A stretch of DNA of 38,966 nucleotides, taken from positions 1 through 38,966 of the forward strand of contig NZ_AYKG01000029.1 of the NCBI RefSeq assembly GCF_003788585.1. The letters are read 5' to 3'. This DNA comes from Salinisphaera japonica YTM-1 (lineage in GTDB: Bacteria; Pseudomonadota; Gammaproteobacteria; Nevskiales; Salinisphaeraceae). A program made the translations under genes and the position numbers. Numbering within the stretch: the stretch's first letter is position 1; each line of letters starts with the position of its first letter. The notes under the pieces are model-generated. The model had not been told where the DNA came from and made no database searches. It was given only the letters and a program-made list of their open reading frames with translations. Shown piece by piece: positions 6,275 to 38,966 of this stretch.

Positions 6275-6350
6275 GGCCATGTAGCTCAGGGGTTAGAGCA
6301 CAGCATTCATAATGCTGGTGTCGCTGGTTCAATTCCAGCCATGGCCACCA
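6275..6350 (+). tRNA. tRNA-Met (anticodon CAT, elongator type)
   Basis: The cloverleaf is complete: GGCCATG pairs with CATGGCC, the D arm is GTAGCTCAGGGGTTAGAGCA, the anticodon stem CAGCA/TGCTG encloses CAT, and the T arm has GGTTCAATTCC. Discriminator A and CCA are encoded. Base pair 1-72 is G-C, so it is not the initiator tRNA. A CAT anticodon could also belong to tRNA-Ile2, in which lysidine replaces C34, and the T arm is somewhat Ile2-like. A tRNA-Met after ychF is common in related genomes, so elongator Met is preferred. Confidence 0.9.
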
Positions 6351-10746: not shown

Positions 10747-10816
10747 ATGGATTGTCCTTGCAGGCAATAAACGGGGATCTCAAATCCCCGGAAAACAGAA
10801 ACGTCTAAGACGCCTA

Positions 10817-11081
10817 GGGGCTGTTGCCGTTTCGTACGAGTCCGCGCCAAGCGCTGTTTTACGGCAAGACGAGGCGTAGCCCACGCCGCGCAGTCATTCT
10901 GCGCCAGTGGGCTAGAACGCTGTATTGCCGCAAAACAGCGCTTGTCCCGAAGGGTTGGGACCAAAATCTGGCCATGCCGCTGGCTCACCTTGATCGTGGC
11001 ACAGCCAGAGCCGCGGCTCGCGCCTTGCCTGGCCAGATTTTGGGCGCCAACGCGGCGCTCGTACGAAACGGCAACAGCCCC
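10817..11081. repeat. Structured terminal-inverted-repeat element, copy 1
   Basis: A 265-bp non-coding element with 24-bp perfect terminal inverted repeats (starting GGGGCTGTTGCC), flanked on both sides by TA. Inside are two long helices: CAAGCGCTGTTTT with AAAACAGCGCTTG, closed by CGGCAA with TTGCCG; and CCAAAATCTGGCC with GGCCAGATTTTGG. The first helix encloses a further hairpin (TAGCCCAC/GTGGGCTA, then GCGCAG/CTGCGC around TCATT). Architecture and short motifs are shared with the copy at 18895. The first 106 bases of the copy at 38861 are nearly identical. Open frames crossing it are not credible genes. It lies between cdhA and cdhB. Confidence 0.85.
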
Positions 11082-12070
11082 TAGATTCGTCCAGCCAAGC
11101 CTTCGGACTCCGGCCAGTAGCGCTCGACCAGGTTCAGCAGATCGGTGAGAAACGCATCGCGACGGTCTTCGAGCTGGGCCACGGTGCGACCGGCCGCCTG
11201 GTGCTCACAGCCGGCGACCACGCGCTCGATCAGCGTATCGGTGAGTTCGGGCGCTTCGAGCTTGGTCCAGGGCAGTTTCAGCGCCGGGCCGAACTGTTCG
11301 AGCATGTGGCGCATGCCTTGTTCGCCGCCGGCCATGTGAAAGGTCAAGAACGTGCCCATGAGCGACCAGCGCAGCCCGGCGCCATAAACCACGGCGGCAT
11401 CGATCTCTTCAGTTGTGGCCACGCCGTCGTTGACCAAGTGTAGGGCTTCGCGCCAGAGCGCTTCCATCAGCCGATCGGCGATATGACCCTCGATTTCGGC
11501 GCGCACCACGAGCGGTTTCATGCCCAGACCGCGATAGTGCGCGCGGGCCTGTTCGATCGTCGCCTCGTCGGTGGCCGTGTTGCCCACGATCTCAACCAAC
11601 GGCAAGAGATAGACCGGGTTGAACGGATGCGCCACCACGATACGCCCCGGTGCACGCGTGGCCTGTTCGGCCAGCTCGCTCGGCTTGATGCCGGAGGTTG
11701 ATGAGCCGATCAGCACGTCTTTAGGCACCAGCGCATCGATCTCGGCCAGCACGTGTTGTTTGAGTGCCGTGCGCTCGGGCACGTTCTCCTGGACCAGATC
11801 GGCACCGGCCAGCGCGTCGGCCAGGTCATCGGTCACGCGCCAAGCGGTGTTATCGGCGGTCGCGGCCAGGCCACGTTTTTCCATCGACGGCCAGGCGATA
11901 TCGATGGCCTGTTTCAGGCGACGCTCGGCGGTGGCCACATCGGTATCGAAGACCGTGACACGGGCGCCGGCGGCCAGTGACCGCACGGCCCAGCCGCAGC
12001 CGATAACGCCGCCGCCGACGATGGCAACGTGTTCGGGCGTGATGACGGATTGATCGGTTTGTGTGTTCAC
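11081..12070 (-). CDS. cdhA: L-carnitine dehydrogenase
   Basis: This NAD-dependent enzyme oxidises L-carnitine to 3-dehydrocarnitine, the first step of the pathway. It has the 3-hydroxyacyl-CoA dehydrogenase fold: a Rossmann motif VAIVGGGVIGCGWAVRS (residues 15-31), FDTDVATAERRL after strand 2, the VQENVPE segment, SSTSGIKPSEL, and the catalytic HPFNPVYLLPLVE. At 329 residues it matches carnitine dehydrogenases. Translation starts at a GTG that overlaps the cdhC stop (GTGA). The TAG stop falls at the right boundary of the inverted-repeat element: the TA of the stop is the element's flanking TA. Confidence 0.88.
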   Translation of the reverse strand: MNTQTDQSVITPEHVAIVGGGVIGCGWAVRSLAAGARVTVFDTDVATAERRLKQAIDIAWPSMEKRGLAATADNTAWRVTDDLADALAGADLVQENVPERTALKQHVLAEIDALVPKDVLIGSSTSGIKPSELAEQATRAPGRIVVAHPFNPVYLLPLVEIVGNTATDEATIEQARAHYRGLGMKPLVVRAEIEGHIADRLMEALWREALHLVNDGVATTEEIDAAVVYGAGLRWSLMGTFLTFHMAGGEQGMRHMLEQFGPALKLPWTKLEAPELTDTLIERVVAGCEHQAAGRTVAQLEDRRDAFLTDLLNLVERYWPESEGLAGRI

Positions 12071-18890: not shown

Positions 18891-18894
18891 ACTA

Positions 18895-19161
18895 GGGCGT
18901 GTCGTCATAAGATAAGCCGGCGCACCGGCGGCCAAGCCGTGGCAAGACAAGGCATCGCAGGTGCAGCGTGGTTATTCCACGTAAACGGGCGATAACGCAG
19001 GATTGCCGGGGCTTGGCCACCGGCCCATTCGGGTTGCTCGCGCCGGACGCGCCATGCGGCGTTACGGGCCTTGACCGTGGCTGGCCACGCTCGGCGGCCC
19101 GCGCCTTGCCTGACACGCCCGGCACGGGCAATGCGACGGCATATCCTATGACGACACGCCC
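18895..19161. repeat. Structured terminal-inverted-repeat element, copy 2
   Basis: A 267-bp non-coding element whose ends (GGGCGTGTCGTCATA and complement) form inverted repeats of about 22 bp with two mismatches, extending as a paired outer stem (GATA, GCCG and GCGCA with TGCG, CGGC and TATC). It is flanked by TA on both sides. Helix A is GGCCAAGCC with GGCTTGGCC, closed by GGCAA with TTGCC, and encloses CGTGG/CCACG around TTATT. Helix B includes GGGCC/GGCCC and CGTGG/CCACG. The shape matches copy 1 although arm sequences differ. The motifs GGCAAGACxAGGC, AACGCxGxATTGCC, CCTTGAxCGTGGC and CGCGCCTTGCC are shared. Confidence 0.8.
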
Positions 19162-19844
19162 TAGCCGATAGCGAATCCAAAAGCCGCCGCGCACTGAATC
19201 TTTAGCGGATCGAGCAGGGCAAGCGGGGCGGTATCGGCATCAATCAGGCCGGGTAGTTCGGTGCAGGCCAGTACCGCGGCCTCGCATTCGGGATAACGCG
19301 CCCAAAGAGCCGCAAACCAAGCCGCGGCGTCGGGCGGCGTGATGCCCTGGCTGGCCTGTTCCTGAAACGCCTGAATCGTTTCTCGCTCATCGGCATCGGG
19401 GATGACGACGTCGAGCCCGGCCGTGCCGAGCCGGCCGGCGTAATAGCCGTTTTCCATGGTGAAGCGGGTACCTAACAACAACACGTTCCGGTGCCCGGCC
19501 GATCGCGCCACGCGAGCAGTTTCATCGACCATATGAATCACCGGCAGGTCAGGGAGTGCGCTGCGATCCAGCTCGTCCAGCGCACGGTGCAGGGTGTTAC
19601 AACAGATAACGAGGCAGTCCGGGCGCAGGGCCGCGAGCCCTGCCAGTTCGTCGGCAAACAGCCGCCGTGCCTCGGCCCAATCGGTCTCGTAGCGCGATAC
19701 AAGCGGCGCTTAATCGATACTCTTGAGAATGAGCGGGGCCGAGTGCGGGGCACCGTAATACGCCTGGGTACGCTCGTTGAGATCGCGATAATAATCGATC
19801 GTCGAGGCCCAGCTCGTCCCGCCCAACAGGCCGATGGTCTTCAT
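19161..19844 (-). pseudogene. Aspartate/glutamate racemase-family protein, nonsense-mutated
   Basis: The frame starts MKTIGLLGGTSWASTIDYYR, the family signature, with GGGAG upstream of the ATG at 19844. It runs in one frame to the TAG at 19161, 227 codons, about the family length. Codon 45 (19710-19712) is TAA, where relatives usually have an aromatic residue after SVD or SID. The two catalytic cysteines remain, in VICCNTLH and LACTELPGL. The enzyme would interconvert L- and D-amino acids. Restart at an internal ATG (19541) would lack the first Cys, so the gene is probably inactive unless the stop is a sequencing error. Its own stop lies at the right boundary of element copy 2. Confidence 0.8.
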
Positions 19845-37658: not shown

Positions 37659-38966
37659 ATGCGGGCCCGTTTTTTCGAGTTTGTCGAGCTGGCACGAAGC
37701 AGCTTCTGGTATCTGCCGTCGATGATGATGGCGGCCGGGCTGGCGTTGTTCGCGCTTACCTTGGCTATCGATAAGCTCGGCATCACCGGCGGATTCGTTG
37801 CCGCTGTTTTCTACAGCGGCGGGGTAAATAACGCTGCCAGTCTGCTACAGACGCTGACCGGGGCAATGGTTGCCATTGCCACCGTGGTCTTCTCCACGAT
37901 GATGGTGGTGCTGACACTGGCCACCAGCCAGTTCGGCCACCGATTGATCCGCAGCTTCATGCGGGATCGCGCGAACCAGGCCGTGCTCGGTATCTTTCTG
38001 GCCACGTTTGTGTTCTGTCTGCTGGTTTTCCATATGGTCGGCAACGACGCCGACAACACGTTCGTGCCCGGCGTATCGCTGACAGTGGGTTTCGTGCTGG
38101 CGATTTTCTCTACCTGCACGCTGATTTATTTCACGCATCACATGGCCTCGCTCGTGGCCGCGCCCGAAGTGCTGGAAGCCGTGGGTAGCGAGTTCGATGC
38201 GGCGATCGCCCGTGTCTATCCCGCCCGCGCCGCCGGTGACGATAGGTCCAAGCGCCGCATGTCTTATCAGCCCACGGGCACGCCGCGTGACGAGGTGGTG
38301 TGCCCTCAGGCGGGCTACATACAGGTCATCGGCGTGGCCGCACTATGCGATCTGGCCGCAAAACACGACATCGTGATCGAGTCTGTCGTCACCTACGGCG
38401 ATCATGTTGTGGCCGGGCTCGCTCTGGCGCGTATCCACGGCGGTGTTATCGACGACAGCATACGGGCTGCCGTGGCGCGCCAGTATGTCGTAGGCGATGA
38501 ACGCCTGACCGATCACGATCTCCTGTTTGCGATCAATCAGGTCGCCGAGGTCGGTGTTCGTGCGCTTTCGCCGGCGTTGAATAATCCATACACCGCGATG
38601 GACTGCATCAACCGTATCGCGGCCTCATTGGCCGACGTGCTCTCCCGGGGCCTGCCGGATCTGGCCCATGTCGATGACAAGGGCACACCACGTTTCTTGT
38701 TGGACCTGCCCGATTTCGCCAGCCTGCTGGACGGCGCCTTCACGCCGCTGCGCAATTACGGCAGCACGAGTATCCAGACGATGATGCAGCTGCTGCTGAC
38801 GATCGAGAAACTGGCCGAGCTGGCTCGCCGGGATGTCGAACAAAACGCGCTGCGCCGCTTGGGCCTGTTGAGGTTTCATACGAGTCCGCGCCAAGCGCTG
38901 TTTTACGGCAAGACGAGGCGTAGCCCGCGCCGCGCAGTCATTCTGCGCCAGTGGGCTAGAACGCTG
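37659..38966 (+). CDS. DUF2254 membrane protein, 3' end invaded by a repeat element and cut by the window edge
   Basis: The frame from the ATG at 37659 (CAGGTAG upstream) runs open to the last base. The N-terminal 165 residues hold four hydrophobic segments. VVFSTMMVVLTLATSQFGHRLIRSF and DRANQAVLGIFLATFVFCLLV are characteristic of DUF2254 inner-membrane proteins. The soluble part includes FAINQVAEVGVRALSPALNNPYTAMDCI. From about codon 401 (38861) the DNA is a copy of the 265-bp inverted-repeat element, so residues after LRRLG are encoded by the element rather than by the family. The native C terminus, perhaps 20-40 residues, is missing or displaced. Function unknown. Confidence 0.82.
   Translation, partial: MRARFFEFVELARSSFWYLPSMMMAAGLALFALTLAIDKLGITGGFVAAVFYSGGVNNAASLLQTLTGAMVAIATVVFSTMMVVLTLATSQFGHRLIRSFMRDRANQAVLGIFLATFVFCLLVFHMVGNDADNTFVPGVSLTVGFVLAIFSTCTLIYFTHHMASLVAAPEVLEAVGSEFDAAIARVYPARAAGDDRSKRRMSYQPTGTPRDEVVCPQAGYIQVIGVAALCDLAAKHDIVIESVVTYGDHVVAGLALARIHGGVIDDSIRAAVARQYVVGDERLTDHDLLFAINQVAEVGVRALSPALNNPYTAMDCINRIAASLADVLSRGLPDLAHVDDKGTPRFLLDLPDFASLLDGAFTPLRNYGSTSIQTMMQLLLTIEKLAELARRDVEQNALRRLGLLRFHTSPRQALFYGKTRRSPRRAVILRQWARTL
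38861..38966. repeat. Structured terminal-inverted-repeat element, copy 3 (left part only)
   Basis: From GGGCCTGTTG onward this matches the start of the copy at 10817, with a handful of differences in the first 20 bp and then near identity up to the window end, including the helix A left arm, GGCAAGACGAGGC and the inner hairpin around TCATT. One difference (CCCGCGCC for CCCACGCC) lies in that inner hairpin. The remainder lies beyond the window. Confidence 0.85.

Follow-up and report, generated by a model that had tools for sequence, protein, structure and literature searches.

Two stretches of about 265 bp in the window (the whole 38,966 nucleotides of DNA analyzed here), starting at positions 10817 and 18895, follow a common plan with arms that differ in sequence, which raises the question of what kind of element keeps its shape while its letters change, and what the shape is for. 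A first-pass annotation had described both copies with inverted ends, a long helix A enclosing a small hairpin, and a helix B, and had taken them for members of a family with conserved shape, changing arms, and fixed motifs. Both copies are present with their inverted ends, and so are the arm sequences quoted, the closures GGCAA/TTGCC, the loops TCATT and TTATT, and all four segments quoted from between the helices. Helices A and B both exist as well, but they are not distinct helices; matches to R1, a covariance model built from 20 units of the same genome (its E-values are rough), identify them as two inverted copies of one unit. The features of the window are as follows.

10817-11081: element 1, 265 bp, a MITE with TA on both flanks
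10815..10816: TA target duplication, left of element 1, read in the sequence
10817..10840, plus strand: left terminal inverted repeat of element 1, GGGGCTGTTGCCGTTTCGTACGAG
10847..10945, plus strand: folded unit alpha of element 1, the former helix A with its hairpin (R1 97.8 bits, E 2.7e-20)
10946..10954, plus strand: central mini-hairpin CCC-GAA-GGG between the two units of element 1
10954..11050, minus strand: folded unit beta of element 1, the former helix B, with the same plan inverted (R1 55.4 bits, E 1.3e-10)
11058..11081, minus strand: right terminal inverted repeat of element 1
11082..11083: TA target duplication, right of element 1; with base 11081 it forms the TAG stop of a minus-strand gene
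11081..12070, minus strand: 3-hydroxyacyl-CoA dehydrogenase-like gene with its TAG stop at the element 1 junction
18895-19161: element 2, 267 bp, a MITE with TA on both flanks
18893..18894: TA target duplication, left of element 2; the site lacks the element in relatives G008 and G010
18895..18914, plus strand: left terminal inverted repeat of element 2, GGGCGTGTCGTCATAAGATA
18925..19023, plus strand: folded unit alpha of element 2 (R1 83.8 bits)
19024..19033, plus strand: central mini-hairpin CCC-ATTC-GGG of element 2
19034..19131, minus strand: folded unit beta of element 2 (R1 82.6 bits)
19142..19161, minus strand: right terminal inverted repeat of element 2, one base different from the left repeat
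19162..19163: TA target duplication, right of element 2; with base 19161 it forms the TAG stop of a minus-strand gene
19161..19541, minus strand: Asp/Glu racemase-like gene with its TAG stop at the element 2 junction
38891..38966, plus strand: third element of the window, with the fifth unit, cut by the window (contig) end (R1 55 bits)

In each element, R1 thus places two units, each about 99 nt long and one per strand, that point toward a CCC/GGG mini-hairpin and are symmetric about the element center. The layout is general: 58 of 60 close unit pairs, from loci found in a class search and with a core pattern of loop letters, are convergent, and of 60 linkers between units at other loci, 56 contain a CCC/GGG-type mini-hairpin (loose rule). 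In the closed genome G012, all 37 pairs are convergent and 9 of 83 units are unpaired; some copies consist of one unit only. Antisense duplicates were removed before unit pairs were counted, as well as before the selection of units for alignment A4 and the inward-read mismatch counts given below. Folded as single strands, elements 1 and 2 beat all 200 shuffled sequences (z −13.2 and −9.8, respectively).

The first-pass annotation had considered a transposable element recognized by shape among other possibilities. As MITEs whose inverted ends and TA duplication are of the ordinary kind, the elements give no hint of recognition by shape, and elements 1 and 2 contain no transposase gene. We regard the MITE anatomy as well supported, and the two elements are probably IS630-like. 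One copy (L109) has an empty paralogous stretch that fits a TA duplication exactly. At the element 2 site, G008 lacks the element and has 16 bases between the flanks, and G010 has AACCAGCC in place of the AACTA-element-TAGCC of the window, with CA at the site; with the right flank aligned by eye, the G010 sequence would fit a two-base duplication with one base different. TA precedes 112 of 153 ends, 89 of which stand in a CTAG context. Among the 72 elements with both ends read, TA is found on both sides in 42 and is missing on one or both sides in 30; of the former, 30 lie in CTAG, which is uninformative on duplication length, and 12 are incompatible with a four-base direct repeat. In L119, L125, and L014, the left and right borders are not TA but complement each other (CTGG...CCAG, CGAG...CTCG), as would happen if one end had served as the template for border bases at the other. 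At L011 (G000 contig 30, 36121-36166), a family 1 element and a family 2 end stand back to back with one TA common to both.

Insertion favors CTAG, often the TAG stop of a gene, and the first G of the element restores TAG. Of the long coding-like frames that run into a junction, 38 stop at the junction TAG; the two remaining frames account for 8 and 6, and in two cases the same frame lacks a stop at the junction. Which unit faces the upstream gene shows no bias (16 alpha versus 11 beta in 27 own-genome head-tail elements). A tail-to-tail preference like that of Pseudomonas fluorescens repeats was considered and is not strong, with 49 head-tail, 20 tail-tail, and 13 head-head arrangements among 82 elements (plus one undetermined), as judged from crude gene calls by GC3. 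The window also contains two ordinary tRNA genes (2457-2528 and 6275-6347).

The elements are abundant in their own genome (G000; 3.26 Mb in 69 contigs). At least 40 matches of about 140 bp or longer to element 1 were obtained when the best 40 of 149 candidates were scored, and at least 31 of about 100 bp or longer to element 2, plus three end fragments, when 40 of 113 were scored. Patterns for the inverted ends, with up to three mismatches, matched 152 (element 1) and 63 (element 2) times, compared with 0 for reversed control patterns. When 150 of the 4361 first-look candidates were scored with R1, at least 145 units reached E 0.001 or better.

The units follow one plan, consisting of an outer helix of 23-24 bp, an internal loop AAGGC/AACGC, a middle helix of 7-9 bp, and an apical hairpin. 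In alignment A1, comprising 20 own-genome units (MAFFT), the covariation score was 0.640 compared with 0.210 for shuffled and at most 0.151 for slid partners; these units were 18 of 25 non-redundant ones plus two more, chosen with units carrying insertions or replaced arms excluded, which favors pairing. The number of further pair types in A1 (57) fell below that of the shuffles (62.0; 493 of 500 at least as high). Alignment A4 holds 59 of 174 units, 97-101 nt long and less than 75% identical, from many genera; it was made with MAFFT with no structure supplied. Here, 82.7% of cells pair versus 48.6% after shuffling, 790 cells versus 273 are changed on both sides, and the covariation score is 0.797 versus 0.198 for shuffled and at most 0.193 for slid partners; these units were all collected with R1, a model that favors both pairing and loop letters. 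For pairs with change on both sides, the count (38) was not separated from the shuffles (278/500). The compensating changes extend over all three helices; at columns 14/89, for example, UA occurs 17 times, AU 15, GC 14, and CG 9, with four units unpaired. The first-pass annotation would have been contradicted by arm changes that fail to compensate in an alignment of many copies; in both the 20-unit and the 59-unit alignment they compensate, so that its family of elements with a common shape and changing arms holds.

Since all 59 A4 units were collected with R1 and 30 of them come from core-pattern loci, conservation of the loop is partly ascertained by both; with that limit, A26, G27, and A71 (first-row numbering) are invariant in A4 and C24, G28, C29, A70, C72, and G76 are at least 90% conserved. 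The arms are a different matter. The core pattern places no demand on the 19 arm pairs counted, and in 75 units found by loop letters alone (five of 80 loci gave no unit with both arms), Watson-Crick pairing holds for 1058 of 1425 arm pairs. For the 32 non-redundant units among them, the figure is 421 of 608 (69%), compared with 33.4% when arms are swapped between units. Fourteen of the 75 fall short of 12 Watson-Crick pairs out of 19, with three as the minimum, and R1 matched 79 of the 80 loci. Pairing is thus present in units found without asking for it, and the arms are nearly free in their letters but held to match.

Several own-genome copies (G000 L004, L014, L017, L024-L026, L029, L030, L043-L049, and L052) have a segment replaced or enlarged by an unrelated piece of 12-22 nt, for example CCATAAAATCGACTATGG and ACGTGTCGTTAATTTCAGGG. 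Pieces like these turn up at various positions in both families, where they disrupt pairing or core. In some copies, one arm is replaced and unpaired. The copy alignments cover 51 full-length elements and omit the partial loci L050, L051, L053-L055, and L057-L060.

Without selection on the folded strand, the ratio of G-T to A-C mismatches should approach that of swapped partners. In A4, G-T:A-C is 140:69 (bootstrap ratio 1.57-2.70), compared with 0.77-1.44 for slid controls and 1.10 for swapped partners; the 32 non-redundant units found without R1 give 73:22, against a ratio of 1.67 for swapped arms. Units read inward from their own end give 115:43 (50 units) and 176:60 (78 units). In alignment A3, a rough split by motif gives 127:34 for beta and 49:26 for alpha units; each kind favors G-T when read in its own orientation, and the two orientations lie on opposite strands. 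Eight beta units of alignment A2, however, give 3:3 in the outer helix. That both units favor G-T argues against one fixed transcript orientation and points to folding of the inward-read strand of each unit, either as RNA entering from either side or as DNA on both strands.

The second of these possibilities, that the fold acts as single-stranded DNA, deserves attention. A host protein or one of the transposase complex would bind the hairpins on each strand and so aid transposition or replication of the element, and the fold would be selected for mobility. The opposite-strand preference of alpha and beta agrees with this, as do the abundance of the elements and the symmetry of the units about the center, and a G-T excess is also expected of DNA hairpins. 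IS630-type transposases, however, act on double-stranded ends, and we consider the explanation possible but rather doubtful.

The speed of arm change bears on another alternative. Among 67 own-genome units with at least 17 of 23 pairs, nine outer-helix cells have acquired a new Watson-Crick pair through changes on both sides, versus 40 changed on one side (16 G-T, seven A-C, and 17 other). Such compensation is quick for independent double mutation, and templated correction, in which one arm is copied from the other during replication or repair, also fits. Arm matching would then be mainly a by-product of copying, with little selection on the helix. In relatives the inverted ends differ too, both ends of an element changing jointly, and a few borders are complementary beyond the ends, as this explanation would predict; conserved loop letters (though partly ascertained) and the excess of G-T over A-C speak against it, and we judge it unlikely as the main cause.

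A fixed locus in Pseudomonas allows rates to be compared. A one-unit element lies between a putative hrpB gene and a small lipoprotein-like gene; eight of 398 genomes of the Pseudomonas family match nearly the whole query at 85-100%, four named records bring the set to 12 orthologues, and the site is empty in four other genomes. Apart from the removal of L210, which equals L356 over the query, the set was not deduplicated. Mean pairwise divergence is 2.3% in the inverted ends, 5.0% and 7.0% in unpaired and paired positions of the unit, and 14.0% in the rest of the element; the surroundings diverge by 9.1% on the hrpB side, 11.8% in lipoprotein coding sequence, and 22.5% in intergenic sequence. 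The unit hence diverges less than the neighboring genes, which counts against templated correction and, since 12 fixed copies keep it so, against selection for mobility through single-stranded DNA; gene conversion between copies could also have lowered the divergence. Variant pair states in the unit comprise nine G-T, four Watson-Crick (three changed on both sides), three A-C, and two other, and L224 has a weakened middle helix. A thirteenth occupied site, outside the divergence set (L365 in G1100), has cleanly lost the unit (query 93-185 missing) and kept both inverted ends, so the unit is not essential at this locus; its loss at a fixed copy fits a function in mobility, as the DNA explanation has it, rather than one for the host.

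Taken together, covariation, the G-T excess, low divergence at the fixed locus, and pairing in units collected without regard to it bear out the proposal of the first-pass annotation that a folded single strand is selected, and we regard selection on the fold as well supported.

The unit is spread far beyond Salinisphaera. Searching own and related genomes with a covariance model, as had been suggested, recovered units in G000, its family, its class, and its phylum: at E 1e-5, R1 found them in 15 of 17 family genomes, 79 of 369 class genomes (64 of 272 genera), and 60 of 398 phylum genomes, some outside the class, where the searches of class and phylum, each covering more than 40 genomes, used stricter filters and scored the best 10 or 11 candidates per genome. 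Among 28 phylum loci inspected, CAAGGC or TAAGGC stood at the expected place in 17 and CTAGGC in six; the fixed segment inspected missed the unit at L334, L337, L340, and L354, and L349 departs from the core. The core pattern occurs in at least 114 stretches of named genomes, of which 80 were examined. Hosts among the matches listed are Salinisphaera, Pseudomonas, Stutzerimonas, Azotobacter, Solimonas, Alcanivorax, and Vreelandella, and further Thiomonas, Variovorax, Ramlibacter, Acidovorax, and Herbaspirillum. A few matching MAGs labeled Flavobacteriales, Lewinella, Oscillospiraceae, or Desulfovibrionaceae may reflect contamination. A blastn search of a plasmid collection with element 1 gave no match.

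This patchy distribution (79/369), high copy number, decayed solo ends, and the loss of the unit at one fixed copy are what one would expect of ordinary selfish MITEs whose interior is conserved because the families are young or horizontally spread and whose fold has no function. We find this improbable, given that the fold is kept in units less than 75% identical, that pairing is found in units collected without it, and that the fixed-locus rates are low. Solo or decayed inverted ends without a recognized unit were seen at L159, L161, L162, L164, and L165.

Across genera, the ends are quite different (TAGTACTCC, TAGTGTCC, TAGAGCCTGTC, and TATTAACCCGG) while the core persists. L203, L214, L231, and L269 carry the same unit within another kind of end, which reads TTCAACCTGGAAACGGCAGTTG or nearly so and lacks the TAG start. 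Ends lacking the TAG start occur in some Burkholderiaceae-type copies. Because ends differ between hosts while the core persists, several transposases may move the elements in trans. Among ten single-end places read in G000, which are remnants, solo ends, or truncated elements, and among matches to PF13358 (the IS630 catalytic domain), there is no autonomous IS with the ends of the window elements. PF13358 had no match in three of six genomes searched (G004, G008, and G013), and these hold 131, 73, and 130 R1 matches, respectively. The partner transposase is for these reasons one that we infer. The single PF13358 match of G000 (L196 58-1204, contig 9) is an IS630 with ends TGTCCTGTAAC that differ from those of the window elements, with no unit listed inside; it sits in a CTAG directly adjoining the TA of an element. 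The ends of L180, an element of another host, resemble, by eye, those of this G000 IS630.

We describe the elements as a superfamily of MITEs, probably IS630-type, defined by a folded unit on which selection acts. The explanation we tentatively prefer, at a probability of roughly 0.45, sees the likeliest role of the selected fold in an RNA structure at transcript ends. The interior would be more than a transposase remnant, and the fold would work in single-stranded form. As the units converge, a transcript entering from either neighbor would first meet a unit in sense orientation, and this layout, the mismatch asymmetry, and the stop-codon sites together suggest a role in RNA entering from either side. 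Such a structure could provide protection, processing, or insulation and make insertions beside stop codons tolerable or useful. Action as single-stranded DNA and templated arm correction are both live rivals. A bolder version holds that the unit is a transposase-agnostic passenger of the Pseudomonadota, one structured module within many unrelated ends, delivered repeatedly and harmlessly to amber stops, with a selectable RNA function at gene ends and some copies domesticated at fixed loci; on the sequence evidence, this is conceivable but on the doubtful side. Support for both the preferred explanation and this version is lowered by the deletion of the unit in G1100, by the ratio of 1.67 for swapped arms, and by the absent PF13358 matches.

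Known systems offer only partial parallels. No Rfam family matched element 1 or 2 above its gathering score; at a loose threshold element 2 gave nothing and element 1 weak candidates only (mir-1265 at 25.5 bits against a cut-off of 79, MIR8788, mir-235, narK, and ncS54), which were rejected. Searches of the open-access literature gave no description of these elements, and the core strings matched nothing there. Strong arm-for-arm compensation thus stands without an Rfam entry. Bacterial MITEs are usually viewed as decayed insertion sequences; here, a folded core persists while the inverted ends differ by host. R1 can be used to annotate copies, and why mobile elements carry structured RNA or DNA becomes testable in laboratory pseudomonads.

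Like the present elements, RUP (an IS630-type MITE whose ends resemble IS630-Spn1), Correia/NEMIS, and ERIC are short, stably folded, and devoid of a transposase, with TA ends; as far as the available portion of the source describes them, two convergent units, a common internal-loop motif, compensated arms, and many different ends are found only here (PMC2229807). CIR of Caulobacter and Brucella also has a pair of long inverted repeats that fold into two arms with a linker between them, in the portion of the same source available (PMC2229807), but exposes GANTC in its loops, whereas no GANTC is conserved in A4. MITEPsy1 of Pseudomonas syringae is likewise mobile and inserts at CTAG or YTAA, but the accessible part of its description gives 100 nt, a four-base duplication, and ends like those of ISPsy2 of the IS5 family (PMC3189936); a four-base repeat of that kind is excluded for 12 of 42 elements here. 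MITEPsy2 (228 bp) was set aside, its ends resembling a Tn3-family IS in the same partial text (PMC3189936). The P. fluorescens families R0, R1, R2, R178, R200, and others share high copy number and intergenic location; several of the families form hairpins, and two have ends in common with an IS. Compared by description only, the available part of the report describes neither covariation nor a family beyond those strains (PMC2718517). REP, BIME, and REPIN elements also form hairpins, often as inverted pairs, in many copies, but REPs, as characterized in the available text, are palindromes of 20-40 bp (PMC3733652), whereas the units found here measure about 99 nt and are enclosed by inverted ends and a TA duplication.
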